From Glutamicibacter protophormiae (GTDB taxonomy: Bacteria; Actinomycetota; Actinomycetes; Actinomycetales; Micrococcaceae): a DNA stretch of 64,000 nucleotides. Of this stretch, positions 1,798 to 57,054 are shown one piece after another. The stretch is taken from positions 124,001 to 188,000 of the forward strand of contig NZ_BMPH01000004.1 of NCBI RefSeq assembly GCF_014647495.1, read 5' to 3'. The translations under genes and the position numbers were made by a program. Each line of letters opens with the position of its first letter. Within the stretch, counting starts at the first letter, position 1. The notes under the pieces are model-generated. The model ran no database searches, was not told the origin of the DNA, and saw only the letters and a program-made list of their open reading frames with translations.

Positions 1798-2856
1798 TTA
1801 CTGAGACAGGTCAGTAGAAGCTACAAATTCGTCAACCGTATCGTTTTGGAGTGCTTCTCCAAACTTGTTAATCGTATCCATATCCGGGATGACAATCGAC
1901 TGTCCGTCGGCCGAACGGCCCGGACCGTTGTTTGGAAGGGTGAAGAATTCCATGTCGCTGGTGCTGACGTTGATCATCGATGAAGCGATTCCAACGACCT
2001 TGCCTGCGTCCAAAGTATCGTCAACCGCCACAAACGGAGCGAATTCGCTCACGACATTCTGAATCTTGACGGGGTTCGTCAGGGTGTCCTTCGACAGGAT
2101 TTGGCCCAGCAGCGCCTTGACGAACAGCTGCTGATTCTTGACGCGACGGTAGTCGCTGCCACCGGGACCGGTAAATGCCTTGCGCTCTCGGACGAAGGCC
2201 AGCGCTTCTTCGCCGTCAAGCTTCTGCACACCTTCCGGGAAGTAGAAGCTCTTATTGTGAATTGGACGGAAGGCAATGGGGTTGTTGATGGTCACGCCTC
2301 CCACAGCATCGGTCAATCCCTTGAATCCTTCGAAGTCAACGGATGCAACGTGGTCGATGCGCACGCCGAACAGGCCTTCCAAGGTCTCAACGGCTTTGGC
2401 CACTCCACCGTTGGCAAATGCGCGGTTGATCTTGGCTTCGCCAATTCCTGGAAGATCCAACCAGGTGTCGCGCATGATCGATGTCACATAGACGCCGGAA
2501 CGATCTGACGGGATGTGCACAAGCATCATGGTGTCCGAACGTCCACCGTTGGGAAGCGTGGCGAAATCATCGTTCTGCTCGTCGTTTTCGCGTTGCGCCC
2601 GAGTATCGCTGCCGAGAAGGAGGATGTTCAGCGCATTCTCGGATTCCTTCTTTACCTCTGGACGAGTTTCCTCGGCGGGGAAGGCATTCTCAAGCTTCTG
2701 GCTGTTGTCATCGAATGTACGTCCGAGGTTCCATGCGTATCCGACAGCGACGAGCGCGGCGATCACTACCAACGACAGGATACTCAGGAGGACTACTCGC
2801 CCGGTGCGCTTCTTTTTCTTAGCGCGCGAACGCGTAGGCTGTTCTTCGAATGACAT
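1798..2856 (-). CDS. LytR-CpsA-Psr (LCP) family wall-polymer transferase
   Basis: LCP proteins move lipid-linked anionic glycopolymers (teichoic acid, arabinogalactan, capsule) onto peptidoglycan outside the membrane. This 352-residue protein has a basic cytoplasmic tail (RSRAKKKKR), one membrane helix at about residues 21-42, then an extracellular LCP domain. Diagnostic motifs are LLLGSDTR, GRSDTMMLVHI, SIMRDTWLDLPG, KINRAFANGG, AVGGVTI, LDGEEALAFVRERK and DYRRVKNQQ; the conserved Asp and Arg residues are present. It has no C-terminal LytR_C domain. It is transcribed away from the DUF3515 lipoprotein gene and ends 21 bases before the DAK2 start. The polysaccharide genes elsewhere in the window make it a plausible attachment enzyme, but that link is inference. 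Confidence 0.93.
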   Translation of the reverse strand: MSFEEQPTRSRAKKKKRTGRVVLLSILSLVVIAALVAVGYAWNLGRTFDDNSQKLENAFPAEETRPEVKKESENALNILLLGSDTRAQRENDEQNDDFATLPNGGRSDTMMLVHIPSDRSGVYVTSIMRDTWLDLPGIGEAKINRAFANGGVAKAVETLEGLFGVRIDHVASVDFEGFKGLTDAVGGVTINNPIAFRPIHNKSFYFPEGVQKLDGEEALAFVRERKAFTGPGGSDYRRVKNQQLFVKALLGQILSKDTLTNPVKIQNVVSEFAPFVAVDDTLDAGKVVGIASSMINVSTSDMEFFTLPNNGPGRSADGQSIVIPDMDTINKFGEALQNDTVDEFVASTDLSQ

Positions 2857-24898: not shown

Positions 24899-26449
24899 CT
24901 ATTTTTCTTCCTCATAGCGAGGAAACACCGGGGCCGGCGCTGGAAGCTCGGTTCCGGGAACCAGTGCTGTTCCATAGTTTTCGAAATTGCGTGCCGACCC
25001 TTCGCCCACCGCAAGGACGTTGAGCAGTGAGGTCATGGCTTGGGGAAGCACTGGCTGAAGCAGGATAGCGACCTGGCGGACAATCTCTATCGTCACGTAG
25101 AGGACGGTCTCCATGCGAGCAGGATCCATCTTCTTCAGCTTCCAAGGTTCTTGCTCCGCGAAGTACGCATTGGTATCTCCGAGAACATGCCACACGGCTT
25201 CCAAAGCTCTGCTGAATTCTTGGCGGTCGTATGCATCCCGGTTGATCTCCAACAGGTTCGCGGCGGCTCCCAGAATTTGGGTATCGGCTGCCAACAATTC
25301 ACCGGGCGTCGGCACCAATCCCCCGCAGTTCTTGGCTACCATCGACAGCGAACGCTGTGCAAGATTGCCGAAGTTGTTTGCCAGGTCGCCATTGATACGC
25401 GCCACGATGGTCTCGTGGTTGTAGTTTCCGTCGGCGCCAAAAGGTACTTCACGCAAGAAGAAGTACCGAACCTGGTCCAAGCCATACCGGGTGACAAAAT
25501 CGTCAGGGGAAACCGTGTTGCCCAACGACTTCGACATCTTCACACCGTTGTTATGCAGGAAGCCGTGAATCATGACTCGTTTGGGAACCGGCAGTTTCGC
25601 GGACATCAGGAACGCCGGCCAGTAGATCGCGTGGAATCGCGAAATGTCTTTGCCAATCACGTGGACGTCCGCTGGCCAGTATTTCTGGAAGGATGCCGAC
25701 TCAACGTCCGGGAATCCAACACCGGTCAAGTAGTTCGTCAGGGCATCGACCCATACGTACATGACGTGCTTTTCGTTGCCCGGCACCGGAATTCCCCAGT
25801 CGAAAGTGGTGCGCGAAATCGAAAGATCGGTTAGTCCACCTTCAACGAAACGAACAACTTCATTGAACCGGGAGCGTGGTGCACCGAAGTCGGGATTCTC
25901 CTCATAGTAAGCCAAGAGCTTGTCCTGATACTTGGACAGTCGGAAGAAATATGATTCTTCTTCGGTCCAGGTAACCTCAGTGTCGGTTTCCGTAGCATAT
26001 CGAATTCCGTCTTCTCGCACGTCGGTCTGCTCTTCGGTGTAGAACGCCTCATCCCGCACCGAGTACCAACCTGCATACTTGTCCAGGTAGATATCTCCGT
26101 TGGCCTCCATGCGGCGCCACAGCTCCTGCGCAGCTGCGTGATGATCTGCATCTGAGGTACGAATAAAACGGTCATAGCTCGTTCCGAGCTCGTCATTCAT
26201 TGTCTGGAAGGCATCCGAATTTCGTTGCGCAAGCTGGGCAGGGGTGATCCCTTCCTTTTCCGCGGTCTGCATCATCTTCTGGCCATGCTCATCGGTACCA
26301 GTCATGAAAAAGACGTCGAAGCCATCCAAACGCTTGAAGCGTGCCAACGTGTCGGTTGCCACTACTTCATAGGCATGCCCAATATGGGGAGTGCCGTTCG
26401 GATAGGAGATTGCAGTTGTCGCGTAAAAGGGTTTCTGCTGAGAAGTCAC
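24899..26449 (-). CDS. metG: Methionyl-tRNA synthetase
   Basis: Charges initiator and elongator tRNA-Met. 516 residues from a GTG start, a compact form without the C-terminal dimerisation domain. Class I signature [12 protein letters not shown] near residue 20 and KMSKSLGN around residue 300. No zinc-knuckle cysteine cluster is evident in the connective peptide, as in the shorter MetG2-like types. Ends at the shared terminator; a core gene immediately before the accessory region. Confidence 0.96.
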
Positions 26450-26506: not shown

Positions 26507-27517
26507 TCACATCAGCCGATCAAGGTAGTCCCAGAATGCTCCACGGAGTGCCCGCCGAATCTTCTGTTGGTCGGTCTTCCACTCCCCTAGCACTTGCGCA
26601 CAATCTTTCAGCAATGTTCTATCAATTTCCAGAGGCAGCTGAGGCTTATCTGCAAGGAGTTCAAGTACTTCTGCTTGGGTGGTGAGTGCCAGCCATGATT
26701 CGGCAACCTTGCCTCCGATTTCCTCGGCAACGGCAAGCTCTTTCTGCTCGTACGCTGCACTGCCCTGAAACCCTTGGCGACTGGAGCCGCTGGAATAAAC
26801 AATTTCCGCATCGGGCAATGGTTCCACGGAATTAAACGGGCCAACTTTTTGCGCCATCACGGCCGGTGTGGGAACTGACGGCCTGTCGATTGTGTTGCTA
26901 TCGTCTGGATTTGCGCCTGCTTTGGCAATGAGCGCCGATTTTTCAGAATGGTTCTGGTCCCACTCAATCACTCGGGTGAACGCAGAATCCAAGAGCTGGT
27001 CTGGGATCGTCTCAATGGCATCAGCTGTGAGCGCCAAGTGTTCAGCGACAGAGGCCACGCCCAATCGGCTTTCTGGCTTAGCAACCCCTAGGAGCACTAC
27101 CCTCATTCCAAGATCCTGAGCTTCTTCGACGGCCTCTGCCAAGTCGTCATCTCCTGAGACCAGGTACGCAACTGATGCTGCACGAGTACGTGCGACACCG
27201 ACTAGGTCCAAGGCGAGTCTCAGATCCACACCTTTCTGTTCGCCATTATAGGAAATACGGCCTAAGCGAACTTTTACCCCTGAAATCAGCCCAATACGTT
27301 TGTGCTGCTCAGTAAACAGTCCATCTTTCGAAGCGTCATACCAGTAAACCCGTAGGTTACTCAGGCCAGAGTCCTTCTTAACGGTTTGGACGATCCCCCG
27401 CACCAACGATTCGTAATGGGTCGTAAACGCGGATCGCAATGTCGTTCCAGCGGCGCGATGCCCACCAAGTGACAGTAAAAATCCGGCATCTATAAAAATT
27501 GCAGTTTGGCTTGGCAT
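26507..27517 (-). CDS. NYN-domain protein (LabA/DUF88-like)
   Basis: 336 residues. The N-terminal 165 residues form a PIN-like NYN domain, often a metal-dependent RNase: AIFIDAGFLLSLGG, the acidic KGVDLRLALDLV, and LVSGDDDLAEAVEEAQDLGMRVVLLG. Acidic residues expected for metal binding are in these three blocks. The C-terminal half (about 230-336) is of unknown fold and may bind partner or RNA. It begins the non-core stretch, right next to the IS cluster. A role in RNA turnover or stress/phage response is possible, but the sequence does not decide it. Confidence 0.82.
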   Translation of the reverse strand: MPSQTAIFIDAGFLLSLGGHRAAGTTLRSAFTTHYESLVRGIVQTVKKDSGLSNLRVYWYDASKDGLFTEQHKRIGLISGVKVRLGRISYNGEQKGVDLRLALDLVGVARTRAASVAYLVSGDDDLAEAVEEAQDLGMRVVLLGVAKPESRLGVASVAEHLALTADAIETIPDQLLDSAFTRVIEWDQNHSEKSALIAKAGANPDDSNTIDRPSVPTPAVMAQKVGPFNSVEPLPDAEIVYSSGSSRQGFQGSAAYEQKELAVAEEIGGKVAESWLALTTQAEVLELLADKPQLPLEIDRTLLKDCAQVLGEWKTDQQKIRRALRGAFWDYLDRLM

Positions 27518-29323: not shown

Positions 29324-30769
29324 ATGGCCAAAATCCTTTCTCCACGCGTCCGAGCGATCATCATCAAATTCGACCCAACTCAGCCAGAGGCTTTGACCGT
29401 CAGTGAATTTTGCAAAACCCAGAAAATCTCCCGCAGCATCTACTACCGCATCCGCGAACGTGCCGCCCATGAAGCAGCCGGAACCCTGCACCCACGCTCC
29501 CGAGCACCGAAGCAACCAGCCCGCCGCTATGGCCCGGAGATCGTCAACGAACTGGTGAAGATTCGCAAACAGTTGAAGACGGATGGATGGGACTTCGGAC
29601 CGAAAACCATCCACTACGAAGCCACCATCCGCCCGGACTTCCCGGAAGGTCCCGTCCCGTCCGTGGCCACGATCGCCAGGCTGCTGGCCAGCGTGGGCCA
29701 TGTTGATCGCAACCCTCGCAAACGTCCCAAAGCGTCCTATGTTCCGTTTGTCCGGTCCACCGCCATGGCACTGTGGCAGTTGGATGCTTTCGAATTCAGA
29801 ACAACAGCCAACCGACTGGTCACCGTCTATCAGCTCATTGACGACGCGACCCGGTACGACGTGGGCTCCAGCGCATACCAACGCCACGAGAACAGTGGCG
29901 ATGCCCATCACGTGCTCGCCCAGGCAATCGGCGCATACGGGGCACCACGCGAAGTGCTCAGCGACAATTTCAAAGCGTTCAACCAGCTGCGTAGCGGAGC
30001 CATTGGTGCCGTGGAGATCTATCTTGCCTCCCAAGGGACCATGCCCATCACGGGCCTTCCAGGACGGCCGACCACGCAAGGCAAGAACGAACGATCCCAT
30101 CAAACATTGCAGCGGTTCCTGACAGCGAACAAACCACAAGAGCTATCCGACGTACGCAAACTCATTCATCGCTATCGCGAACACTACAATCAGCGCCGCC
30201 CTCATCAAGCTCTCAACCAGTCGACGCCGCAAACAGCATGGGACCTGCTGGAACATACCCCGGCAACAGCACCGATTCCACTGGTGGTGCTGGAAGCAAA
30301 AGCCGCAGAATACCTGCAGAAACGACGGCTCGGGCGCTCGGCGGTGAACCGTGCCGACGTCGTGGTGTCCAAGTCAGGAAGAGAGGTGGAACTGGCCTCA
30401 CCCTTGGAACCGCAACGTCAGGAACTGCAAGGCAACCAGATGCTGGTGGATGTCACGCGCGATAACCGACAGACGTACTACAAGGGCTATCACCTCTCCT
30501 TGCCAAGCACCTTTGCCGACCGCCGATTCGTTCGGACCATCTCTGAGACGGAATTTATTCTTTCTGACCCGGAAACAGCGGAAGTTGCCTTCAGTTTCCC
30601 GTTGCCCATGATTGCGCTCAAGGTTCACGGAAAGTACGTGGCGTCCTATTCGATCAAAGGCGTGCAGCTAGCGAACCCGACGGCCCAATGGCAGAAGAAG
30701 GCCGACGAATATCTGGAGCAGTATGAAACACGCCAGCAGCAGATGCCTGAGGTCTTCGACTATCAATAA
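29324..30769 (+). CDS. IS-B transposase, DDE (rve) type, intact
   Basis: 481 residues. Helix-turn-helix at about 20-60 (VSEFCKTQKISRSIYYRI), a basic linker (PKQPARRYGPEIVNELVKIRKQL), and an rve/integrase core with the three acidic residues in WQLDAFEF, VLSDNFKAF and KNERSHQTL. After the RRPHQALNQ motif comes a C-terminal domain (VLEAKAAEYLQKRRLG ... FPLPMIALKVHGKYVASYSI) that most short IS481 transposases lack. The ATG follows the left repeat array. The core resembles IS481-group enzymes, but length and ends suggest a distinct subgroup. Confidence 0.92.
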   Translation: MAKILSPRVRAIIIKFDPTQPEALTVSEFCKTQKISRSIYYRIRERAAHEAAGTLHPRSRAPKQPARRYGPEIVNELVKIRKQLKTDGWDFGPKTIHYEATIRPDFPEGPVPSVATIARLLASVGHVDRNPRKRPKASYVPFVRSTAMALWQLDAFEFRTTANRLVTVYQLIDDATRYDVGSSAYQRHENSGDAHHVLAQAIGAYGAPREVLSDNFKAFNQLRSGAIGAVEIYLASQGTMPITGLPGRPTTQGKNERSHQTLQRFLTANKPQELSDVRKLIHRYREHYNQRRPHQALNQSTPQTAWDLLEHTPATAPIPLVVLEAKAAEYLQKRRLGRSAVNRADVVVSKSGREVELASPLEPQRQELQGNQMLVDVTRDNRQTYYKGYHLSLPSTFADRRFVRTISETEFILSDPETAEVAFSFPLPMIALKVHGKYVASYSIKGVQLANPTAQWQKKADEYLEQYETRQQQMPEVFDYQ

Positions 30770-30820
30770 ACAACGCGATAACTACCGGCAGCTTCTCCAA
30801 AGAAGGGGCTGCCGGTAGTT

Positions 30821-30939
30821 GTGTACGAAGTCGTGAGATCGGTTGTCCACGAAGCCATGAGATTCAGTGTCCACGATGTTGCGAGATTACACACCATGTA
30901 TCCAGAACGGCACTACCAGGTCGTCGGAACGGCACTACC
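30821..30939. repeat. IS-B right end: three 24-base units plus two 22-base units
   Basis: Reading inward on the minus strand: GGTAGTGCCGTTC-type 22-mers in tandem, then three TCTCA...CTTCGTGGACA units, about 70 bases of which mirror the left end from 29146. The left end has one 22-mer and six 24-base units, so the ends are asymmetric. Confidence 0.75.
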
Positions 30940-30957
30940 CGCTGATGCTATTTGGCA

Positions 30958-30963
30958 ATCAGG
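30958..30963 (+). repeat. Target-site duplication of IS-B, right copy
   Basis: ATCAGG, matching 29098-29103. Reading from the left copy straight into base 30964 restores the codons AAT CAG GCA AGC in frame (Asn-Gln-Ala-Ser). Confidence 0.88.
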
Positions 30964-31631
30964 CAAGCCCGCAGAAGGCTTGGGAGCTGCTGGAGCACAC
31001 ACCGGCCACCGAGCCGATACCGATGGTGGTGCTGGAAGCCAAGGCGGCTGAGTACCTGATGAAGCGCCGCGTGGGCAGCTCGGCGGTGAATCGCGCTGAC
31101 CTTGTCGTTTCGAAAACCGGGGACATCTTGGACAAGCTCACGGAGCAGCACGAGCCTGCCATGGATCGGGAAAGCCATCAGTTACTGGTTCGGGTCAATA
31201 AAGACAACTGCCAAGCGTATTATCGGGGCAAGCAGATCTCGCTGCCGCAGACCTATGCCGACCGACAGTTCCTGAGAACCATCACCGATAATGAATTCAT
31301 CTTGTCGGATCCCGATACCGCAGAAGTCGTGTTGAGCTTCCCGTTGCCCCTGGTGGCATTGCGTGTTCATCAGCGGTTTGTGGCCTCGTACTCGATCAGA
31401 GGAATTCACCTGGCGCACCCAACCAAGCAGTGGAGCCGGAAGGCCGCCGAATACCAGGCCCAGTACGAAGCGCGGGAAGAAGACATGCCAGAGGTCTTTG
31501 ATTACCGGTAGTCAGCCATTGCCGGCGGCTCCCGAATGGGAACCGCCGGCAGCTGTGTACAAAGTCATGAGATCGGTTGTCCACGAAGCCATGAGATTCA
31601 GTGTCTACGAAGTCCCGAGATTTCACACCAC

Positions 31632-31930: not shown

Positions 31931-34360
31931 TTATTGAATATGAAGCAGCTGATCCAATTCAGATGAGACTTCGACGTTATATTTAACAAAATCAAATGAA
32001 GGAACAGGTAAACCCTTCTCACAAAAATCAAATAATGCGGCCGTGAGATCAGAATCTGTGGAATCAACGACAATACCATCACGCGGACCCAAAACATCTT
32101 CAACAACATTGAATCTAGTAGTGATTACAGGAACTTTAAGAACCAGAGCCTCCAAAATTGCGAGACCTTGACCCTCATACTCGCTAGCGAAAAGAAAGCA
32201 ATCAGAATTTCGGACAAATGGGAAGGGATTCTCCTGAAGACCAACAAATTCTACGCTTTCAGAAATATCCAATTCGGCAACGAGTCGAACCAATTCACTC
32301 ATCAAAGGTCCATCGCCAACGATTGTCAAAGTTGATTCGCGATATCTTTCGTTGACTCGCGCAAAACTACGAATAATTCGTGCTTGGTTCTTCTCCGGCG
32401 AAAGTCGTCCAACAGTAACAAAATTCGGTCCGCGTTGTCGTGTTGCAGACCTTATATGTTCCCCTGCGAGTGACAGTATTCTCTCACCATCCACAAAATT
32501 ACGTACGTGGGTAAACCTACTTGGGTCGGCATACCTACCCAATTTATTGCTATTAATTCGGGCTAACTCCTCAGTTACAGATACGATCTTTGTAAAGCGG
32601 CCATACATCGGAAAAACAGACATCAGATTCTTAAAGTGCGGCTTCTTTGATCCGATCGTCCGATGCGCATCGAGCAGTAGATCATTATGCGCCCAAAGGT
32701 ACTTTCGCTTCGCGTTGGATCGAAGCAGCAACTCTCCCCAAAACACTTGGTACCCGTCAAATCCGATCACAATATCAAAATCGGAATCACCAAAACACCT
32801 ACGCCACTCACGAGAAAATATGGGTTTAATAGAATCCCGATACTTAGAATTTGTTCGCAGCCCACCGCCCTTGGTGTATGCCCAATATGCGCGACGTTGG
32901 AACCATCGCATGGATACGTTTCCGACACGAGGCATAAGCCGTGCCCTTTCATCCAGTTCCATGCTTTTTTTAGTCTGAAAAGACTTCGAAGAATAGGGAA
33001 AGATTACTGTTACATCATATTCATCGTAATTGATTCGTGAAATGAGATTAATGACAGCAGTAGTAATCCCATTAGGAATCAATGAGCCAGCATGAATTAG
33101 AAGGCGCTTTTTATCATGGCCAAGTTCCAGGATTTTTTCAGATTTCTGTTTACCAAAAATAATACTAATGGCGTTTTTAGTAGAATCAGAAGTATCTTCT
33201 AAAGCATAACGACGCTTCCAAGAAATACGCGCCGCCGAATAAGAATCATGCATGGACGACTTTAATATAGAATCAGTCACGCTAAGCACGTCATAATTGA
33301 CGCTCCCAGGAAGATCATCAACACTAAAATACAAGCCACGGTCTTCGGCGTAAGATTCATAGTCAGAAAAAATAAAATGAACCGGACGATCCAAAGCCAA
33401 ATAATCAACAAATATGCTAGAGTAATCTGTAATCAACTGATCAGTAATAGAGAGAATTTCACTTGTATCAATATCACGCGGCAAGATAAAATCAGGTAGT
33501 TCTCGAGGATTCACTGTACGTAGTGCTAATTGATGTACCTTAGCAAGTACGGTGTAAGAAGAACCCAGATTAGATTGTATTTTCGTTACCGTATCAATTA
33601 TTTCGGAAATATCTGAGTGAACATTATAAGCGTTTGCGCCTTTCCACGTAGGTGCAAAAAGAATTACTTTCTTGCCAGCGGTAAAAATTCCTTGTTTTTC
33701 CAAACGATGAATAGTCAATTGCTTACTGGCTGACAATTCCAGCATACGAGCGACGCGAGGTTGCCCCACCTCTAGGATTTTTCCCTGGTAGATATTGGAA
33801 AGCTTAAAAGACGTACTCAAAATATCTTCGGAGAAAAACGCTCCACTTGACAATATGTAGTCGGCCGACAGAAAGTTTCTGACTACATTTCTCGCGTCGC
33901 TTCTCCCGTTTGGAACTTCATATCCCATCTTCTTTACTGGAATACCATGCCAGGTATTAATATAAACCTGATCATTTCGCTTAGCAAATTCGTGAGGAAA
34001 GGTGGAATTATTGATTAAATACTTACAAGTTGAAAGCATCTCAAAATATGTAATCGAACGGTACTTTACAAAAGAAATATTATCAAAATCTGCAAACTTA
34101 TCTATAAGCGAAGCCAAAACATCCGCATCTCGTATAGACCAAACATGGTGCAGATGCGAATAAGCCCGGTTCGCAATGAGCGATTCGAAGATTGCAGCCG
34201 GATTGCAGTTGATGCCTAGTCCATCAAACGCCTCGTAAAATACAAAGTTATTACGTAATGGTGCATAAAAGTACTTTGAAAGTCGGTTCTCATGAGCAAC
34301 TCGTCGAATCCGTCGTTCAAAACTGCGTAGGTATTTAACTGGATTGCGCTGAAAACTCAC
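31931..34360 (-). CDS. TagF-like glycerophosphotransferase fused to GT4 glycosyltransferase
   Basis: 809 residues, GTG start, AT-rich codons. Residues about 1-400 match CDP-glycerol glycerophosphotransferases (TagF/TarF type): YLINNSTFP, YINTWHGIPVKKMG with the conserved His, LFAPTWKG, LITDYSSIFVDYLALDRP and SDYESYAEDRGLYF. From about 415 on there is a GT-B GT4 enzyme: SLIPNGITTAVINLI, VTVGRLSPEKNQARIIRSF, IVGDGPLMSELV and the donor-binding SEYEGQGLAILEALVLKVPVI. Fusion implies one protein that adds both polyol phosphates and a sugar, as in substituted teichoic acids. There is no membrane segment, so it is probably cytoplasmic or membrane-peripheral. The donor specificities are not readable from sequence. 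Confidence 0.87.
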   Translation of the reverse strand: MSFQRNPVKYLRSFERRIRRVAHENRLSKYFYAPLRNNFVFYEAFDGLGINCNPAAIFESLIANRAYSHLHHVWSIRDADVLASLIDKFADFDNISFVKYRSITYFEMLSTCKYLINNSTFPHEFAKRNDQVYINTWHGIPVKKMGYEVPNGRSDARNVVRNFLSADYILSSGAFFSEDILSTSFKLSNIYQGKILEVGQPRVARMLELSASKQLTIHRLEKQGIFTAGKKVILFAPTWKGANAYNVHSDISEIIDTVTKIQSNLGSSYTVLAKVHQLALRTVNPRELPDFILPRDIDTSEILSITDQLITDYSSIFVDYLALDRPVHFIFSDYESYAEDRGLYFSVDDLPGSVNYDVLSVTDSILKSSMHDSYSAARISWKRRYALEDTSDSTKNAISIIFGKQKSEKILELGHDKKRLLIHAGSLIPNGITTAVINLISRINYDEYDVTVIFPYSSKSFQTKKSMELDERARLMPRVGNVSMRWFQRRAYWAYTKGGGLRTNSKYRDSIKPIFSREWRRCFGDSDFDIVIGFDGYQVFWGELLLRSNAKRKYLWAHNDLLLDAHRTIGSKKPHFKNLMSVFPMYGRFTKIVSVTEELARINSNKLGRYADPSRFTHVRNFVDGERILSLAGEHIRSATRQRGPNFVTVGRLSPEKNQARIIRSFARVNERYRESTLTIVGDGPLMSELVRLVAELDISESVEFVGLQENPFPFVRNSDCFLFASEYEGQGLAILEALVLKVPVITTRFNVVEDVLGPRDGIVVDSTDSDLTAALFDFCEKGLPVPSFDFVKYNVEVSSELDQLLHIQ

Positions 34361-34425: not shown

Positions 34426-37400
34426 TTATTTCGGCGACTTCTCGTCCAATCCAAGTACAGAAGTCCTAAACTGATATGACGCATTTTTGTAGTATGATTC
34501 AGGATCGAATGCAACTTGAGGCACCCAACCCTCTATGAATTTGCACATTCCGGCGGCAAGGCCATCAATAGTATTCTCAACAAGCATACCCAGGCCATTC
34601 TCAACGACACTACGTGAACCGACAACATCAGTTGAAATAACAGGCGTACCAAGAATCAGTGACTCGATCATGGCCAAACCCTGTCCTTCATACTCTGATG
34701 AGAATACGAAACAATCCGATTGGGCGACCAACGAAAATGGATTGCTAAGTTGACCTGTAAAAACAATATCTGCGCTAAGTCCTAGTCGCTTTGTTCTTGC
34801 TTCCAAGCTCTGGCGCAATGGACCATCGCCGATAATGAGCAGGCGTGATTGCGGATACTTGGCTTTAACAATTGCGAATGCATCGATCAGCTTCTTGTGT
34901 CCTTTTTCAGGCGAAAGTCGTGCCATGTTGACAAATACATTCTCTGCACCAGATAGGTCATCAAAATAATATGACAAATCAGATCCGCTGATCTTTGCCT
35001 GTTCAATTGGATTCTGAACATCAATCAAATTATCAGCATATACAAATTTCTTTACAGGTAAACGGAACTCCTCCGAAATTTTCTTCTGATTTTCATCGTG
35101 AACTGACTTGCTGACAGAAACTAGTCGGTCATAACTACCATAAAGCGAAAACAGCCCCTGCATTCTTGGGAACCGAGAATCACGTTCCCTTACCATGTCA
35201 TTATGAAGATAAATGACTTTATTTGTTTCGTGATTGATTGGATTTGCTAGAATCGAAGCCCAAAAGCGAGAGTAACCTTCAAAATTAATTACATGATCGA
35301 ATTTAGCATATCCAAATACACGCAAAAATTCTCTTTTCATAGCAGATGCAAAAATCTGATTTTCTTCTACGGAAATCAAACCTGAATCCTTATGAAACCT
35401 ATCACTCACTAACCGCTCTTCAGGACCTAATACCTGTCCTCCAATGCGGGCAATAAACTTAACACGTTCAGAAACGGATTTTAGTATCCGGTGAGACTCA
35501 CCGTCGACTGGAATCTGCTTCGCATCAATCGCAACATAAACATCGTAGCTATCGGTATCGATAGAATTTACAAGATTAACGAAAGAAGTCGTGATACCGT
35601 TGGGAATAAATGAGCCTTGATAAATGAGAATCGATTTTTTCTCAGAACTCATTGTATTAGGCTCATAATTCGGATCAAAGAAACACTCAATTGCTCTTTT
35701 GCTAGCATTTCCGTCTTCGAATTTTATGAAGTCAAAAAATTCGGAATAGTCTTTCTGCCCCGAGTGAAGTGCATCATCTACTGCACCGAGCAACTCATCT
35801 TCATTCCAGCAAATCTCACCTGGCCACTCATTCTGGTTGAAATACACTCCCCGCTGTTCAATGTACTCATCATAATCCGGAGTATAGAAAATGATTGGTC
35901 GCTGAAGAGGCAAAAAGTCGTAAAAAATACTCGAATAGTCTGTAATGAGTACATCGACTGCGGACAGTAGTTCATTGGTATCAATTTCTGGCGGTACAAC
36001 CGAAACCGGTAGGTCCGTACCTGAAATTGCACGTTCGGCAAAACGGTGAGCTCGGAATACTACTTCATGTCCGTCACCGACGAGCTTGCCTAGTGTTTTA
36101 ACGAGAGCGTCATTGTCGAAAGTCTGTTTACCAAGCTGCCCACGCCACGTTGGCGCATAAAGCACAATTTTTTTGCTATCGTCGAAGACACCGAGCAGTC
36201 GGCGAATTGCTTGTATCTTAGAAGAAGAGGCTGAAATGCTATGGTCGATTCGCGGACTACCACCAATCACAATTTCAGCCGTCAGTAGTCCATCAATATC
36301 GTGATCGTTTATCAATGCATTTGCAGTATGCTCGTTAGGTAAAAACAGATGAGTGCTGTGCAACAGATTTCGTACGACGTTGGAATGTTCAAAATGTGCA
36401 TTTTTTACACGTTTCCCCATAAGTTTCAGCGGAGTGCCATGCCAAGTATTCAAATAACGCTGACCGCTTCTACGAATAAAATAGGTTGGGAAAGTTGCAT
36501 TATTCACTAGATATTTTGCGCAGGCAAGGTGATAAAGATATTCGTCACTATGCTGCTTTACCAGCATAGTCCGAGGGCAACTCAGAATTTCTTGAGGCGT
36601 ATTCTTTAAGTCATTTATAACCCAGACAAATTTCAATTCCTGATAGGCAACATCTTTTTTTAAAGTATTATAAATAGCAAGAGGATTGCAATGAATGGAA
36701 GATCCGTGGCTTGATTCGAACAAAACTGTATTGTTCGAGATCTCGGTAGATTCACGAAAGTCATTGTAAATCATGTGTCGTCTCGTCTGAGGACCTTTAA
36801 GGTATGGACGCTCGTCGACTCCACTCGGCCGCGCGAAGTTTCTTGTGCGCGCAAAGCTATCAGAAGAATCTTTATATTTTCTATCACCAAGTAGGGCCAG
36901 ACCCTTTTTTGCGAATAGGCTCGATTTCGTTCCGGTTCGGTGGAAAAGACTATGCTCAACAGATTCGGCGGCTCTAGCGAATTCTCCCGCACGTAGAAGA
37001 ACATCTGCCTGGTATTCGAGACGCGTAGATTCAGAAGAGCCCGGATTTGGTCGTAAACCCGGCGTTATGAAATCGAAGAATGCCAGACTTTTGAAAACGA
37101 GTTCATCGCGTTCAGATTCATTAATGACGAGTGCCGCTTCTTCGCGGTTTAGCGTTCCATAGGCTAGGCAAGAACGAACGTAAGCATCGCATGACGATTC
37201 ATAGTCTTTCGCTTTGGCAAAAGAGTAGCCCGCACGAAACCAACGAAACGCTTGATTATTACTTCCAAATGCTGCCGACAAGGTATATGAAGCGGCAGCA
37301 AGTTCATAATCTCCAAGACGATCATTTACGTATCCAAGGCGATACTGGCAATCCTCAAGCTTCAATTCGTAAGATAGCGCCTGTACGTAGAATTCTCGAG

Positions 37401-38298
37401 CAAGTTTCCAGTTGTACAGCTTTTCAGCAACTCGACCACAAGTGTAGAGCAGCTCGCCCTTGTCAAGTTCCTGCGGTAAGAAGTTACGATAAGCTTCGAG
37501 AGCAAATACCCACTGCTGCTTTTCCTCGTGATAAGCTCCAATGCCGAACTTCTTTTTCTTACCACTCTGGCAACTAAGAAATTCTTGATATAAAAGATTG
37601 GATTTCTCCACCTGGCCTGCCCTTTGAAAGGATAGGCCGGCGTTGTAGAGCATCCATGAATCTTGTGCTGATTTGTTCGAATTTCGGTACGAAATTTCAA
37701 AGTTACTGCCAGCAAGTTCAAATTTGCGAAGGTAAAAAGCAGCATGAGCAATTCTAAGACTCCACTGTGATTCTCCAGTCCGACTGAGCTGCTGAGATTC
37801 TAAAACCTCAAGCTCTCTCCAACGCAGCTCCGATTTATTTAGTGCTAGCGCCAGCAGATCTGTAATCTCTGGAGAGTCAGGATTCTCTGTATTCAAATTT
37901 TCAAGGAAAGATACAGCAGTTTTTGGTTCCCGAGCATGGATTAGTGATTCTGCATGAAGAATCCTTATATTTTGAGAATTATTGCAATATTCGAGTGCTT
38001 TCTCAAAAGATCGTGTGGCTTCTTTAAATTTCCCAGAGGCTCTTTGAGCCTCACCAAGTGCAATATAGGCTTCGGATGATTTGTGCCCATCTGTGATCAA
38101 ATCAGCTAGTACATTTATAGCTAACTCTGGCTTGTTAGTTCTCATCCGACAAGCAGCCAGACGCAAGTTCACTTTTGGATCCGCATTACCGTTATCCCGA
38201 ATAAATTTTTCATAGAGTCTTGCTGCTCGCCACCAGTGGTTTCCCTTTTCCAGTTGACGTCCTAATATCAATGTGGTGGAAGACTGGAGATTAGACAT
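34426..38298 (-). CDS. TPR-TagF-GT4 three-part fusion protein
   Basis: 1290 residues. Residues 1 to about 480 are helical repeats of TPR/Sel1 type (SEAYIALGEAQRASGKFKEATRSFEKALEYC is clear). A TagF-like domain runs from about 509 to 870 (YLVNNATFPTYF, YLNTWHGTPLKLMGKRV, LYAPTWRGQLG, LITDYSSIFYDFLPLQRP). A GT4 domain occupies about 883-1285 (FIPNGITTSFVNLV, VNMARLSPEKGHKKLIDAF, IIGDGPLRQSLEARTKRLG, SEYEGQGLAMIESLILGTPVI). The last two parts are colinear with the 809-residue neighbour, so the pair are paralogues, one having gained or lost the TPR part. The repeats may recruit a partner or set chain length. It is the first gene of the AT-rich TagF pair. Confidence 0.88.
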   Translation of the reverse strand: MSNLQSSTTLILGRQLEKGNHWWRAARLYEKFIRDNGNADPKVNLRLAACRMRTNKPELAINVLADLITDGHKSSEAYIALGEAQRASGKFKEATRSFEKALEYCNNSQNIRILHAESLIHAREPKTAVSFLENLNTENPDSPEITDLLALALNKSELRWRELEVLESQQLSRTGESQWSLRIAHAAFYLRKFELAGSNFEISYRNSNKSAQDSWMLYNAGLSFQRAGQVEKSNLLYQEFLSCQSGKKKKFGIGAYHEEKQQWVFALEAYRNFLPQELDKGELLYTCGRVAEKLYNWKLAREFYVQALSYELKLEDCQYRLGYVNDRLGDYELAAASYTLSAAFGSNNQAFRWFRAGYSFAKAKDYESSCDAYVRSCLAYGTLNREEAALVINESERDELVFKSLAFFDFITPGLRPNPGSSESTRLEYQADVLLRAGEFARAAESVEHSLFHRTGTKSSLFAKKGLALLGDRKYKDSSDSFARTRNFARPSGVDERPYLKGPQTRRHMIYNDFRESTEISNNTVLFESSHGSSIHCNPLAIYNTLKKDVAYQELKFVWVINDLKNTPQEILSCPRTMLVKQHSDEYLYHLACAKYLVNNATFPTYFIRRSGQRYLNTWHGTPLKLMGKRVKNAHFEHSNVVRNLLHSTHLFLPNEHTANALINDHDIDGLLTAEIVIGGSPRIDHSISASSSKIQAIRRLLGVFDDSKKIVLYAPTWRGQLGKQTFDNDALVKTLGKLVGDGHEVVFRAHRFAERAISGTDLPVSVVPPEIDTNELLSAVDVLITDYSSIFYDFLPLQRPIIFYTPDYDEYIEQRGVYFNQNEWPGEICWNEDELLGAVDDALHSGQKDYSEFFDFIKFEDGNASKRAIECFFDPNYEPNTMSSEKKSILIYQGSFIPNGITTSFVNLVNSIDTDSYDVYVAIDAKQIPVDGESHRILKSVSERVKFIARIGGQVLGPEERLVSDRFHKDSGLISVEENQIFASAMKREFLRVFGYAKFDHVINFEGYSRFWASILANPINHETNKVIYLHNDMVRERDSRFPRMQGLFSLYGSYDRLVSVSKSVHDENQKKISEEFRLPVKKFVYADNLIDVQNPIEQAKISGSDLSYYFDDLSGAENVFVNMARLSPEKGHKKLIDAFAIVKAKYPQSRLLIIGDGPLRQSLEARTKRLGLSADIVFTGQLSNPFSLVAQSDCFVFSSEYEGQGLAMIESLILGTPVISTDVVGSRSVVENGLGMLVENTIDGLAAGMCKFIEGWVPQVAFDPESYYKNASYQFRTSVLGLDEKSPK

Positions 38299-38429: not shown

Positions 38430-39589
38430 CTAATGATTTTTGAAACCGGCTTGTTGTAGAGCGGCTTCAAGTTTTTGATCAACCTCATGTGTCGCTGGAT
38501 CATAGTCAACTATAGAAGTTCTGTTATATTTCCAATTCGTATTAATTCCGAGATAATGTCTATGAACAAAGTCTTGAGAGATCTCCGGCTCAAAACCGCC
38601 GCCGAACCCATGAACTTGCCACTGGTATTTATCGTCAACTCGCTTTGGAGAGATTGCCCATTTTTCAAGGCTTTTACTCTTTTTTATGTCTTTGTATTTA
38701 AAGTCAGTAAAGCGCGGAAGGCGCTCACTTTGATTGTCAATCTGCACGGTTTCAACCCACGAGCCAGAGAACCTGATTGCGCCATCTTTTGACGCTAGTA
38801 CTCCGTCAACCAAAGAAATATCGTTCTCTTTTACTACTAATTCATCTATATCAACATTAACGACCACATTGGACTGTCGGAGATAGCGTCGTTTAGCGTG
38901 CTCGAGTACGCCATATTGACAATAATTAGAATCCCATTCTTTGTTTGGCCCCGAGCCAGGTCCGTACTTGAAGTTCCAAGGAACAACCACGGCTTTTTTA
39001 TTTCCTTTATGCTCTTGAAAACATTAAGAATATCATTTGGTGAATATTTTGAAGAATTATTATCGTAGAATAGAACCGCGTCTATGCCGTGTTGTCGCGC
39101 ATAATATGTTGCCCAGTCTTCAATCCATTTTAAGTCATTGTTTTTTGATAGTGTTACTAAAACATTTCTATCTTTAAAAACATCGGAATGATTTTTTTGG
39201 ATTTTACCTCTTACTGAAAGTTTGCCGACGTCAATTCTAAAGGTGCTGTCATTAGAATAATAAATCTCTTCTGCAGGAATCGTTACTTTCGAGCGTTGCG
39301 TTTTCCATCCGTCGGCGAACGCATCCTTCTGGTGAACTTCCTGTCCATAAAGTTCAATATTCGCGATTTTGATGATGTCTAAAAGATTTCTAAGTGGCGG
39401 CCCTGAAAATACCACACCGTTATAGTCTTCAAATAAGTCGTAAAAAAGCGTATGATGATCGAAACGTTCCAGGTAGTCACTCTCCTGATTTCGCTTAGAC
39501 CGTGGAGGTTTTCGATATACGCCCACGTTGGGGCGTAGGAGGACTGGCGAGATTTCGGCGATATGGAAACTCTGTGATTTCACTACCAT
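38430..39589 (-). pseudogene. GT92-like glycosyltransferase, frameshifted at an A6 tract
   Basis: Two overlapping frames (39589 down to 38846, and 38990 down to 38430) make one protein of about 386 residues. The N-terminal frame carries SKNNDLKWIEDWATYYARQHGIDAVLFYDNNSS. The second continues VVVPWNFKYGPGSGPNKEWDSNYCQYGVLEHAKRR and NVDIDEL (the DxD-type metal site). The break is at six A on the coding strand (plus-strand T at 38994-38999): one more A would read I-K-K-A-V-V-V-P-W and join them. It overlaps the pyruvyltransferase stop by 7 bases. It may be an inactive gene, a phase-variable switch, a slippage site or a sequencing error. Confidence 0.75.
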
Positions 39590-40380
39590 TGTCCTAGTTT
39601 GCTCGTATTGAAATTAGGTTCTATAGAACTTTTAAATACGTCAACCGACTTTGAATAGCTTCCCGGATACAGAGTTACGTTTCTTCCCAAAAGGCTTCCT
39701 GCGATTGCTACGTGCATTCTATCTGTAAATATATTTTTGTAGCTAGATAGGATTTGAAAGAATGGGGTGATTGGCTTTGAATCATTCGCCAATAGGCTCA
39801 AGTCTAAATTATCTGGATAGGTTCGAGCATTCGGATTCTTTTCGCGATCTTCTCGGAAAAAATTCCCTCGTTCAATCACTGGATCGTTGGAATCTTTCTT
39901 TATCTCTAAATAGAAAGCCGTATCATGGCAGAATTTACTATTTGGATTTTCCTGTTTACTAAGAAAATTATCACGTCTAAAGTACGTAATATTATTAGCA
40001 TTTTCTAATGGCGGAAGCTCAAACGTTGTTGGCAAGACTACGACATTATCGAAAGCTCGGTGGACTTTTTCCACAAATCGTCTACTGCCATTCCATTTTT
40101 GACACCACGATCCACCTCCCCCTGCGATCAAAATTGTACCGTCGAGCCGTGATCCCAATTTAGATACGGAATCGACTATGGATTCTACAGTGCTTCTAGA
40201 CATCTGAAGGTAATCCACATTGTTCGCGCGAAGGAATTGTTCGTTTCCCTTGTGGATTAGGCCGTCTCCCCAGTTACCAACATTTGCCACGTAGACAACT
40301 TTTTTGCCTCTAGAAAGCGTCCTGATCTCAGCCGCCATTTCTTTGAACGCCGTGTCTTCTCGGAGGGATTTAAGTCTCAT
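39583..40380 (-). CDS. Polysaccharide pyruvyltransferase-family protein
   Basis: 265 residues. The family adds pyruvate ketals from PEP to sugars of surface polymers. Blocks: VVYVANVGNWGDGLIHKGNEQFL, an ILIAGGGGSW loop, VVLPTTFELPP, CHDTAFYL and the family-defining TDRMHVAIAGSLLGRNVTLYPGSYSK. It is somewhat shorter than usual. It shares the AT-rich composition of the TagF fusions and is the first gene of a minus-strand run ending in the IS cluster. Pyruvylated glycerol-teichoic or teichulosonic acids are known in related actinobacteria, so pyruvylation of the TagF product is a reasonable guess. Confidence 0.88.
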   Translation of the reverse strand: MRLKSLREDTAFKEMAAEIRTLSRGKKVVYVANVGNWGDGLIHKGNEQFLRANNVDYLQMSRSTVESIVDSVSKLGSRLDGTILIAGGGGSWCQKWNGSRRFVEKVHRAFDNVVVLPTTFELPPLENANNITYFRRDNFLSKQENPNSKFCHDTAFYLEIKKDSNDPVIERGNFFREDREKNPNARTYPDNLDLSLLANDSKPITPFFQILSSYKNIFTDRMHVAIAGSLLGRNVTLYPGSYSKSVDVFKSSIEPNFNTSKLGQW

Positions 40381-40612: not shown

Positions 40613-42208
40613 CTACTCGGCAAGATTAATCTCGCGCGCGACACTAGCTCCTATCGCAGCGCCGACAATATCCAGCACTCCTTGTGGTAGTGCAGAGTCG
40701 ATGTTAATCACTGCTAGCGCTTCAGCACGATTCTCGTCGCGTGAAACCTGCATACCGGCAATGTTGATGCCTTGCTCGCCCAACACATTGCCCAAAGAAC
40801 CTACAACACCAGGACGGTCAGAGTAACGGACAACAATCATGTGGTCCGAGATTGGGATCTCGATTTCGTGTCCATTTATGCCTACGAGCTTTTCAATCTG
40901 CTTCGGACCGGTCAAAGTTCCTGCTACTGCCAGCTGTGCACCTTCGTTGCTCGCACCCTTGATAGTCAGCTGGTTGCGGTATTCAGGCGAATCGGTGGTC
41001 TTGATGAGACGAGTTGCAACGCCGCGCTGCTCTGCTAGAACCGGAGCATTGACGTAGGAAACCTGGTCGGAGACAACATCCATGAAGACACCCTTGAGTG
41101 CGGACAGTTCCAGAGCCTTGACATCCAACTCGGCGATTTCACCAGCAACAACTACATCGATGCTGGTCAACGATCCGGTAGTCAGCGCATTGAAGATACG
41201 GCCGAGCTTCTCGATCAGCGGGATGCCAGGGCGGACGTTTTCGTCGATCACACCGCCAGCGACGTTCACAGCGTCCGGCACGAGTTCGCCGGCCAGAGCC
41301 AGGCGTACCGACTTGGCGACCGATACGCCGGCCTTTTCCTGAGCTTCGTCGGTAGATGCACCCAGATGCGGGGTGACGGTGACGTTGTCGAATTCGAAGA
41401 ACGGCAGGTCGGTGCTTGGCTCGCTGACGAAGACGTCAATGCCGGCACCGGCAATTTCCTCGTTCTTGAGTGCTTCATACAACGCGTCCTCGTCAACAAG
41501 TCCACCACGGGCTACGTTGACTACGTAAGCGGTGTTCTTCATCTTGGAGAACGCATCCTTGCCGAGCATGCCCAAGGTTTCAGGGGTCTTCGGCATGTGG
41601 ATGGTGATGAAGTCCGCCTGCGCCAGAAGCTCGTCAAGGGTCACCAGGGTTACGCCGAGCTGGGAGGCTCGTGCTGGAGTTACATACGGGTCATAAGCAA
41701 TGATGTCCATCCCGAAGCCCTGCAGTCGGGCGGCAACCAGTGCGCCGATGCGGCCAAGGCCGATGATTCCGGCCTTCTTCTCGAACAATTCCACACCGGT
41801 GAACGAGCTACGCTTCCAAGCTCCACCCTTGAGCGAGGCATTTGCAGCCGGAATACGGCGAGCCAGCGATACGATGTGGCCGACAGTGAGTTCGGCGGCC
41901 GAGATGATGTTCGAGGTTGGTGCGTTCACGACCATGACGCCGGCCTGGGTGGCCGACTTGATGTCCACGTTGTCCAGTCCGACTCCAGCGCGGGCAATGA
42001 CCTTCAGGTTTTTTGCCGCTGCGATGGCTTCGGCATCAACCTGAGTAGCCGAGCGGACGAGAATGGCATCGACATCGGCGATGGCTTCGAGCAGCTGGGA
42101 GCGGTCCGCTCCATCGGTCTGACGAATTTCAAAGTCGGGACCGAGCGCCGCGACGGTTGCAGGCGAGAGCTGTTCGGCCAGAAGTACGATTGGTTTGTTG
42201 TCAGACAC
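40613..42208 (-). CDS. serA: D-3-phosphoglycerate dehydrogenase
   Basis: First step of serine synthesis. 531 residues, the long form with an extra substrate-binding (ASB) domain and a C-terminal ACT domain for serine feedback (HMIVVRYSDRPGVVGSLGNVLGEQGINIAGMQVSR). The NAD-binding motif is GIIGLGRIGALVA; catalytic block NVARGGLVDEDAL and the His in TVTPHLGASTDEAQEKAG. The start is GTG 42208. Composition returns to the core type. In many actinobacteria serA is close to leuB; here 18 kb of other genes, IS elements and the TagF island lie between them. Confidence 0.97.
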   Translation of the reverse strand: MSDNKPIVLLAEQLSPATVAALGPDFEIRQTDGADRSQLLEAIADVDAILVRSATQVDAEAIAAAKNLKVIARAGVGLDNVDIKSATQAGVMVVNAPTSNIISAAELTVGHIVSLARRIPAANASLKGGAWKRSSFTGVELFEKKAGIIGLGRIGALVAARLQGFGMDIIAYDPYVTPARASQLGVTLVTLDELLAQADFITIHMPKTPETLGMLGKDAFSKMKNTAYVVNVARGGLVDEDALYEALKNEEIAGAGIDVFVSEPSTDLPFFEFDNVTVTPHLGASTDEAQEKAGVSVAKSVRLALAGELVPDAVNVAGGVIDENVRPGIPLIEKLGRIFNALTTGSLTSIDVVVAGEIAELDVKALELSALKGVFMDVVSDQVSYVNAPVLAEQRGVATRLIKTTDSPEYRNQLTIKGASNEGAQLAVAGTLTGPKQIEKLVGINGHEIEIPISDHMIVVRYSDRPGVVGSLGNVLGEQGINIAGMQVSRDENRAEALAVINIDSALPQGVLDIVGAAIGASVAREINLAE

Positions 42209-55746: not shown

Positions 55747-57054
55747 CTAAATGACGCCAGCGCTCTCCTCGACCTTTATTTCCCTAGAATCTCGATTAGG
55801 CGACCCTTCACTGTGGCCTTTCGGCTTTTCAATGAAAACTAGGCAAATCGCTCCTTGGCTCATCCCGCCTAGGAACGCCACACGACGGCTTATCGCCGTG
55901 ATCGGTGTCGTCTCATCGACCAACAGGATTATTGAGTCCAAAAATCTGTCGCTCAAAAAAGCCACTCGGGAGTCTGCAACCTCAGTCGGAATTCCAATAA
56001 GCACGGTATCCATGCCGGCCCATGCACTTCGCGCGGCTGAGTCCGGCCAACCACGATCAAGTTCCTCTGGCGAGATAGCAGCCAGAGACATGCTGTAGCT
56101 GTGTTGCTCCCGTGCTTTCAATCCCTGATAGAGGAGCGAACGGATTCTTGCTTCCGGGGTTCGGCCAAGACCCAGCAGCCCAATGGCCTTGGGGTACCGT
56201 GTCCCGGGCTCCCCCGTTCCTATCTGCGACCTGACGATCCACCGCATCCCTTCACGGTCTGCGGGGTTACGCAAGGCGAGTACCTCCAAACCAGTCAATT
56301 CGGCCAGGCGAGTCGCGTTTCCTACGGTTTTGCTTAAACGGTCCCGGACGACGGCAGCGATCAGTCCCAGGACCAGGCCTCCGGCGAGCCCTGCAACAGC
56401 GTACAGAAGCAAACCCGCATACGATCCAGCATCAGCCGGGTCTGCGAAACCGATGATACGGCCCGGATTCTCTGCTACAAGGGAGAGGTCGTTACGTTGA
56501 TTGACGAGGTCAGCGAGTGCCAGCTCGTAGGATGAACCGTTTTTTCCGGTCTGGCTCAGAGTCTCAATGCGCTTGTCGATTGCCTTGATGTACGTATCCG
56601 CGACCTGCGCGGCACCCTCGGCACGGAATTCCAGATAGGCCGCTGCCAAAGCGTTGGCTTTATCCGCTGCACGCTGAGGATTCGCATCAACGACGGTCAC
56701 GGTAAGAACCTGGGAGCCCTGCGGTGCCTCGATCCTTGCGTTTTCGCTCAGCGAAGCCGCGCTGGCTTCCTCTCCTAGGTCTTCTGCTGCCCTCCGCGCC
56801 ACTTCGCTAGAGCCCAAGATGGCACGTTCGGTCGTAATGTTAATTTGCTGGCTCGCCGTCGCCGATGAAAACGGATTCGTAGTTAGCGGGTTAACAGTCA
56901 GAACTGTTTTGGCCGAATAGCTTGTTCCGTTGACGACGCCAAAGCCCAAAGCAACGATGACGGTAAGTACCAGTACCGTACATACCGTCTTCCATCTAAA
57001 TACGATGCGCCCCCAAATTTCCGAAAGCAGCACGGGCTGCCTGTTTACCTGCAC
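55747..57054 (-). CDS. Wzz-type chain-length protein with degenerate BY-kinase-like C-terminus
   Basis: 435 residues from GTG 57054 (GGGGGA 4 bases upstream); the open frame to 57267 adds unconvincing sequence. TM1 at about 23-42, an extracellular coiled loop with NPQRAADKANALAAAYLEF (typical Wzz/CpsC), TM2 at about 213-236. From about 250 on it follows the layout of a bacterial tyrosine kinase (ELTGLEVLALRNPA; AWAGMDTVLIGIPTEVADSR; ILLVDETTPITAISRRVAFLGGM). However, the Walker A position reads AIGLLGLGRTPE without GKS/T, and no Tyr-rich tail is present. So it probably regulates chain length without kinase activity. It is first in the operon. Confidence 0.85.
   Translation of the reverse strand: MQVNRQPVLLSEIWGRIVFRWKTVCTVLVLTVIVALGFGVVNGTSYSAKTVLTVNPLTTNPFSSATASQQINITTERAILGSSEVARRAAEDLGEEASAASLSENARIEAPQGSQVLTVTVVDANPQRAADKANALAAAYLEFRAEGAAQVADTYIKAIDKRIETLSQTGKNGSSYELALADLVNQRNDLSLVAENPGRIIGFADPADAGSYAGLLLYAVAGLAGGLVLGLIAAVVRDRLSKTVGNATRLAELTGLEVLALRNPADREGMRWIVRSQIGTGEPGTRYPKAIGLLGLGRTPEARIRSLLYQGLKAREQHSYSMSLAAISPEELDRGWPDSAARSAWAGMDTVLIGIPTEVADSRVAFLSDRFLDSIILLVDETTPITAISRRVAFLGGMSQGAICLVFIEKPKGHSEGSPNRDSREIKVEESAGVI

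Follow-up and report, generated by a model that had tools for sequence, protein, structure and literature searches.

A family of polymerases described in PMC5974469 joins, in one polypeptide, a TagF-like domain to a partner of the GT-A or GT-B type, and the majority of its members also carry a domain rich in tetratricopeptide repeats (TPR). Such enzymes alternate the transfer of glycerol phosphate and of a sugar (PMC5974469 and PMC11666461). The product of Cps3D and Cps7D, capsule polymerases of the pig pathogen Actinobacillus pleuropneumoniae, is poly(galactosylglycerol phosphate) (PMC5974469), and the structure of Cps3D has been solved (PDB 8qoy): its TPR domain mediates dimerisation, truncation of this domain leads to the loss of primer elongation, and a role in processivity is attributed to it as well (PMC11666461). 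The subject of this paper is a pair of adjacent genes, which we call LONG and SHORT, found in a window of 64,000 nucleotides of the actinobacterium Glutamicibacter protophormiae (contig NZ_BMPH01000004.1, positions 124,001 to 188,000; plain coordinates below are those of the window). LONG is a new case of the already characterised Cps3D-type architecture, in a Gram-positive setting. Judging from homology and genome context, we think it likely that LONG is an alternating polymerase of this type, producing a wall teichoic acid that resembles type II, and that SHORT is a second complete polymerase.

The comparison with known systems can be made domain by domain. Cps3D and Cps7D have, like LONG, a TPR part, a TagF-like domain and a GT4 domain of the GT-B type in the same order, and Cps7D, with 1277 residues against the 1290 of LONG, shares the pair of catalytic histidines and their spacing. 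What differs is mostly the setting: LONG belongs to a Gram-positive host whose genome gives no match at an E-value of 0.001 to the glycolipid transferases KpsS/C (PF05159) of Gram-negative group 2 capsule systems or to LicD (PF04991), the type to which CpsC of the Cps3D system belongs, it has no typical TagD gene beside it, and a second complete TagF-GT4 enzyme adjoins it; in addition, the TPR sequences of LONG and Cps3D are barely similar. TagF (Staphylococcus epidermidis, PDB 3l7i) and TarL share with LONG and SHORT a homologous TagF domain with the catalytic histidine pair, but TagF lacks a glycosyltransferase domain, and its product is poly(glycerol phosphate), whose backbone is free of sugar. 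TarM has a homologous GT4 domain, in which R326 and K331 correspond to the R-x4-K pair of our two proteins, but it is a separate protein that decorates a finished backbone. Polymerases such as Cps1B also fuse the transfer of sugar and of phosphate in one chain, but in the reverse domain order and with a GT-A glycosyltransferase. The sequence-only reading of this DNA had implied that the three-part architecture was new, and had named a prior characterisation as the finding that would speak against it: the architecture is already published and crystallised (8qoy).

Domains and catalytic residues

LONG (34426..38298, minus strand, ATG start) encodes 1290 amino acids, with a TPR superhelix at residues 2-483, a TagF-like glycerol-phosphate transferase at about 519-873 and a GT4 glycosyltransferase at about 887-1265. 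SHORT (31931..34360, minus strand, GTG start) encodes 809 amino acids, with a TagF-like transferase at 34-401, a GT4 glycosyltransferase at 417-790, and no TPR part. The two genes lie head to tail with 65 bases between them and are probably co-transcribed; the numbers of promoter-like sites (22, against 17.5 in shuffled sequence) and of terminator-like sites (5, against 8.1) are near the shuffled ones. In LONG, Pfam assigns Glyphos_transf (PF04464) to residues 519-871 (E 3e-77), Glycos_transf_1 to 1118-1258 (E 2e-31) and several TPR families to stretches of which the best run from about 24 to 338; in SHORT, it assigns PF04464 to 33-385 (E 3e-65) and Glycos_transf_1 to 642-777 (E 4e-25), and the same scan found no TPR family there. 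The first claim made about this DNA, that two adjacent genes fuse a polyol-phosphate transferase to a retaining glycosyltransferase, thus holds for both genes, though the coordinates given with it covered LONG and left SHORT out. The roughly 480 residues of helical repeats ascribed to one of the proteins are there as well: an AlphaFold2 model of residues 1-880 of LONG, with a mean predicted local distance difference test (pLDDT) of 88.7 and a predicted template modelling score (pTM) of 0.69, has 29 helices within residues 2-483. The model of SHORT is confident over its full length (pLDDT 90.8, pTM 0.90).

The catalytic residues examined are intact in LONG and SHORT, which answers the objection that one of the domains might lack them; within the five TagF motifs the check covered the two histidines, and within the GT4 domain the arginine, the lysine and the glutamates. 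Residues H620 and H751 (TagF) and R1127, K1132, E1204 and E1212 (GT4) of LONG do not vary across an alignment of 18 proteins that includes SHORT, and all 32 rows of the TPR type keep the two histidines. In SHORT, residues H138, H276, R652, K657, E729 and E737 are invariant in 30 of 30 TPR-less rows. We take E1204 and E1212 of LONG to be the EX7E motif of GT4 enzymes. The distance of 131 residues between the histidines of LONG is that between H612 and H743 of Cps7D, in which the mutation of either of them, or of R1123 or K1132 (numbers as printed), leaves no polymer synthesis (PMC5974469).

The alignment of LONG with Cps3D of Actinobacillus pleuropneumoniae (8qoy) has an E-value of 7.1e-171 and consists of two stretches in the same order, 33.6 bits for the TPR part and 548 bits for the TagF-plus-GT4 part; the E-value for SHORT is 1.3e-109. 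The top Foldseek match of both models is 8qoy, and the model of SHORT superposes on it with a template modelling (TM) score of 0.79 over 808 columns.

Proposed activity

Domains, intact catalytic residues, kinship and genome context are computed results; from them we infer what follows on the reaction and its sugar, on the lipid primer, on the destination in the wall and on how LONG and SHORT share the work. The TagF domain of LONG would transfer glycerol-3-phosphate from cytidine diphosphate (CDP)-glycerol to the terminal sugar, the GT4 domain, working with retention, would add a sugar to the glycerol at the chain end, and the alternation of these two activities would yield a poly(glycosylglycerol phosphate). 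By holding or recognising the primer, the TPR superhelix would let the chain begin on a linker and grow processively. An undecaprenyl-linked primer would carry this chain, an ATP-binding cassette (ABC) transporter would export it, and a ligase of the LytR-CpsA-Psr (LCP) family would join it to peptidoglycan. SHORT would be a complete polymerase of a TPR-less, almost wholly Gram-positive branch, making its own chain or block.

The earlier guess about activity, a repeat of polyol phosphate plus sugar built by one polypeptide, is well supported by homology: Cps3D and Cps7D make such a repeat and their catalytic residues are kept here, the activity itself being transferred from them. The companion idea, that the TPR part measures or holds the chain, finds a counterpart in the published truncations, which support a role in primer extension and processivity for the Cps3D type. 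As for the donor, CDP-ribitol was provisionally set aside: a search with IspD yielded one strong match, probably the enzyme of the isoprenoid route, as well as a weak one (48 bits, in a frame of 501 residues), and no clear TarI-like copy was evident. Some TagF-like capsule polymerases are known to transfer hexose phosphate (PMC5974469), and the TagF domains could conceivably do the same in place of polyol phosphate. However, both LONG and SHORT have the WHG form, tied to glycerol-phosphate enzymes, and not the QHG form, tied to hexose-phosphate enzymes (PMC11666461, 2024), and the genome holds a TagD-like enzyme: we regard a transfer of hexose phosphate as very improbable.

Relatives and origin of the pair

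The family tree was computed on 101 TagF-GT4 regions that reach at least 300 bits for TagF and at least 250 bits for GT4 in our own profiles, identical regions being dropped. A row was labelled TPR when it scored more than 50 bits against a profile built from the LONG proteins of Glutamicibacter, a label that a very divergent TPR part could escape. One branch, with a support of 100 in the Shimodaira-Hasegawa-like approximate likelihood ratio test (SH-aLRT), separates all 34 TPR-labelled rows and two unlabelled rows of Sulfurovum from the other 65 rows, none of which is TPR-labelled; support over the whole tree is incomplete, 53 of its 98 inner branches being starred. LONG falls in the TPR group, nearest to its Glutamicibacter orthologues, and SHORT in the other one. 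The TPR group mixes Gram-negatives and Gram-positives, and the TPR-less group is almost wholly Gram-positive, with one metagenome-assembled genome of Acidobacteria among its named rows. Among the matches listed, the Gram-positive relatives with TPR come from Glutamicibacter, Arthrobacter, Corynebacterium and Brevibacterium, those without from Leifsonia, Cryobacterium, Bacillus and Staphylococcus. The term "paralogue", which the sequence-only reading applied to SHORT, is therefore right in the broad sense but not in that of recent kin, since the two proteins belong to two deep clades and share 34% identity across 793 aligned columns; a recent tandem duplication is ruled out by the same two clades.

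Within the genus, full-length LONG proteins (frames of 1274-1296 residues) were found in 9 of 17 relatives and the TPR-less form in two, labelled G002 and G017. In G002, SHORT comes before LONG with 166 bases between them, the reverse of the order seen here, beside the same border formed by an NYN-domain gene and metS. Approximately unbiased (AU) tests reject sisterhood of the two LONG proteins of this genome and G002 (p 4.6e-9, 17 rows) and of the two SHORT proteins (p 2.7e-4, 18 rows); these p values are indicative, given that groups and subsets were picked with the large tree already in view and that several of the branches are long. Since both tests reject sisterhood, the pairing of a TPR-less and a TPR form probably arose twice, and a ready-made pair shared with G002 by a single transfer is not supported.

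In G017, the SHORT form adjoins a GT2-TagF protein of 1232 residues instead. More generally, TagF proteins with a TarS_C1 domain (1180 amino acids, L036:12069-15611) or a GT2 domain (1232 amino acids, L040:6305-10003) stand beside LONG or SHORT in relatives G001 and G017, where polymerases of the GT-A/TagF type appear to be paired with those of the TagF/GT-B type.

Beyond the genus, we compared 79 loci on named contigs, the best 79 of at least 583 confirmed matches: 25 are of the TPR type and 54 are TPR-less, and two of the 79 (L072 and L098) are also from Glutamicibacter. At least two full TagF-GT4 genes, with TagF at 300 bits or more and GT4 at 150 or more, are present in 7 of the 79; loci L102 and L142 have partial second copies that fall below these limits. 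No second full TagF-GT4 gene is seen in the fetched flanks of 49 of the 54 TPR-less loci, some of these flanks ending at contig ends, and SHORT is thus probably an independent polymerase; 33 of the 54 have no other TagF match of at least 50 bits in their fetched flanks. In Neobacillus sp. SuZ13 (L104:3283-13194), three TPR-less TagF-GT4 genes stand in a row, and the GT4 match is split by about 160 and about 260 residues in two of them. In a sample of 296 genomes from the whole class, TagF-GT4 proteins occur in 5, our own included, and the TPR form was not found outside our own genome; two candidates were scored per genome, and pairs could escape such a count.

These comparisons bear on the most elaborate way in which the pair could work, a relay. 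SHORT would make a first block or linker whose end the TPR part of LONG recognises, and the result would be a two-block polymer, as with CpsA/CpsC and CpsD in Actinobacillus. The genes share a strand and lie 65 bases apart, G002 has a like pair at the same NYN/metS border in a combination that probably arose a second time, and the published TPR truncations lose primer elongation (PMC11666461). However, these are just two cases, a mixed pair of TPR and TPR-less forms occurs in none of the 79 loci, the 49 solitary TPR-less loci suggest that such enzymes probably work alone, and the locus gathers polymer genes anyway; the AU subsets, moreover, were chosen after the tree and hold several long branches. 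We consider the relay unlikely. It is nevertheless compatible with LONG being a Cps3D-type polymerase, and, drawing on adjacency and on two apparently independent pairings, it is possible; the alternatives weighed in this paper are not all mutually exclusive with the preferred explanation, and the chances that we give them need not sum to one.

The flanks also inform on the supply of CDP-glycerol. A TagD-like gene is found in the fetched flanks of 17 of the 25 TPR-type loci, with a profile of five sequences, of which these same loci contributed three, and with several flanks cut by contig ends; in Corynebacterium sp. NML130628 it directly precedes LONG. Among TPR-less loci, that of Bacillus haynesii places the enzyme between ABC exporter genes of the tagGH type and genes of the tagF, tagD, tagA and tagB types (named from Pfam families), with an epimerase, and a locus of Staphylococcus simulans (L141) has two TagD-like genes. 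In the Staphylococcus equorum locus, TagD was not found among 7 neighbours with Pfam or among open reading frames (ORFs) of at least 100 amino acids with the TagD profile, a reason to doubt that TPR-less enzymes are generally tied to CDP-glycerol.

Wall-polymer genes in the host genome

The genome is a 3.83-Mb draft. Its TagD-like protein (C4:112224-112586) scores 160.8 bits, just under the cut-off of 165.4 for TIGR01518, and is over that of PF01467. It belongs to a cluster that lies beyond the window, some 43 kb from SHORT, and that also encodes an LCP protein, three Stealth proteins, GT2 enzymes and an ABC transporter of two genes. This separate cluster would probably supply CDP-glycerol, export and ligation to the pair. 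In relative G004, the counterparts of its TagD, two ABC and two GT2 products share 94, 87, 78, 82 and 74% identity with them, respectively; there, two weak TagF proteins flank the orthologue of LONG, which is one gene away from TagD. A recent move of LONG out of this cluster within the genome is unlikely, because LONG is only 39-49% identical to the orthologues that stand in that cluster in relatives. The three Stealth-type proteins (C4:104936-112078, or L028:936-8078), one of them fused to GT4, occupy the place where relatives have LONG, possibly the mark of an exchange of wall-polymer type within the genus.

The genome also has other parts of a wall-polymer pathway. A domain of the WecG/TagA family is present in a protein of 894 amino acids, fused with GT2 domains (L026:5423-8107, about 5 kb past the end of the window); there are two proteins of PF00953, a family of lipid phospho-sugar transferases, one of which may be MraY, and three LCP proteins, among them a candidate wall-polymer ligase in the window (1798..2856, minus strand). 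The five PF04464 matches of the genome are LONG, SHORT and three weak ones (40.3, 38.7 and 35.1 bits), so that candidates for a TagB primase are weak only. Because the host is Gram-positive and TagD-like, TagA-family, ABC exporter and LCP proteins are found in it, and KpsS/C and LicD are not, a type II-like wall teichoic acid seems likelier than a group 2 capsule. There is also the case in which the product is an extracellular capsule or a free exopolymer, not linked to the wall: the nearest characterised relatives make capsule, and the locus resembles a serotype-like variable locus. The same inventory of genes present and absent argues against it, and we hold it to be rather unlikely.

The Arthrobacter nicotianae group contains teichoic acids. 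Nothing usable on the wall chemistry of Glutamicibacter was found in the literature searched, and a biosynthetic gene cluster was not found in the passages of PMC9396385.

Elsewhere in the window, a protein of 292 amino acids (57935-58813, minus strand) resembles cytidylyltransferases in its C-terminal domain, with 61.6 bits for PF01467 and 63.8 bits, far below the cut-off, for TIGR01518, and Pfam matches nothing in its N-terminal part; a protein of 506 amino acids (55747-57267, minus strand), about 15 kb from the pair, has a weak match to the Wzz chain-length determinant (PF02706, 23.6 bits, cut-off 25.5).

A variable locus between serA and metS

The pair appears to stand in a variable locus for surface polymers whose cargo was imported. 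Its border at high coordinates is a serA-type gene (phosphoglycerate dehydrogenase by Pfam; 40613..42208, minus strand); the other is the gene of an NYN-domain protein (26507..27517, minus strand), present in 17 of 17 relatives of the genus, which adjoins metS (methionyl-tRNA synthetase; 24899..26449, minus strand), named through a 93%-identical G002 orthologue with a Pfam assignment. In the stretches fetched from these relatives, metS is beside the NYN gene in 16 of 17, and the 20 kb fetched on the opposite side contain serA in six (G003, G008, G009, G011, G012 and G015); it was not seen in the other 11 stretches, G002 and G017 included, where the border in common is the NYN/metS side only. 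The content beside the NYN gene varies strongly, with large glycosyltransferase cassettes in many relatives and TagF-similar proteins in G002, G008 (weak), G011 and G017.

Three further features lie between these borders. Gene X (38430..39589, minus strand) is broken into two overlapping ORFs of 247 and 186 amino acids in different frames, which match residues 21-185 and 189-378 of one G017 protein of 797 amino acids, itself with a pyruvyl-transferase match in its C-terminal part: gene X looks frameshifted here, unless this is a sequencing error. Next to it, at higher coordinates, is a possible polysaccharide pyruvyl transferase (39583..40380, minus strand; PF04230 at 24.6 bits, just under the cut-off of 25.3). 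Between the NYN gene and SHORT, at the edge of the low-GC segment, are an IS481-like transposase of 481 amino acids and an ORF of 214 amino acids (29324..31511, plus strand); the latter, comparing the translations by eye, resembles the C-terminal half of the transposase and is apparently a truncated second copy.

Such neighbours raise the possibility that the cassette was recently acquired and is in decay, with one or both enzymes no longer serving the wall. The GC content at third codon positions (GC3) is 0.37 for LONG and 0.36 for SHORT, against 0.64 for serA and metS, and a frameshifted gene and an insertion sequence lie alongside. However, both frames run uninterrupted for 1290 and 809 codons, their catalytic residues are intact, and GC3 is variable among the relatives' copies as well, from 0.46 to 0.85: we give decay little credence.

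Discussion

Several observations weigh against reading LONG as a Cps3D-type polymerase of a wall teichoic acid with SHORT as a second one. The model of residues 1-880 of LONG matches 8qoy at an E-value of 3.4e-37, but with a TM score of 0.46 and a root-mean-square deviation of 20.6; since this superposition is poor and the TPR sequence match, at 33.6 bits, is weak, the geometry between the TPR part and the catalytic part of LONG is not demonstrably that of Cps3D. The modelled domains agree with those of Cps3D, while the course that the TPR superhelix takes with respect to the TagF domain may differ. A typical TagD, a primase or an exporter was not found beside the pair within the window, and a TagD-like gene appears in the fetched flanks of just 12 of the 54 TPR-less loci. 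The main wall polymer could be made by the cluster in which three Stealth genes stand where relatives have LONG. The characterised relatives are of the capsule type, wall attachment being suggested by genome context, and the apparently frameshifted gene and the insertion sequence leave room for a cassette that is decaying. These points notwithstanding, we still consider the wall teichoic acid polymerase a likely role for LONG.

According to PMC11666461 (2024), the biosynthesis of type II to IV wall teichoic acids has yet to be characterised, and a Gram-positive TagF-GT4 fusion presented as a synthase was not found among the matches listed in the open-licence literature searched, subscription papers being outside its scope. 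It is tempting to go further, and to conjecture that Gram-positive TagF-GT4 fusions supply the synthases still missing for type II wall teichoic acid and that the Glutamicibacter pair is a relay, SHORT making an inner block that the TPR part of LONG grips and LONG extends, to give a two-block wall polymer that strains exchange like a serotype cassette; in this full form the conjecture is a long shot. In a more modest form, the Gram-positive TagF-GT4 relatives are a testable candidate for the type II synthase, the one that places sugar in the backbone, and in LONG and SHORT nature has set the same catalytic pair side by side for comparison, once with a TPR part and once lacking it.

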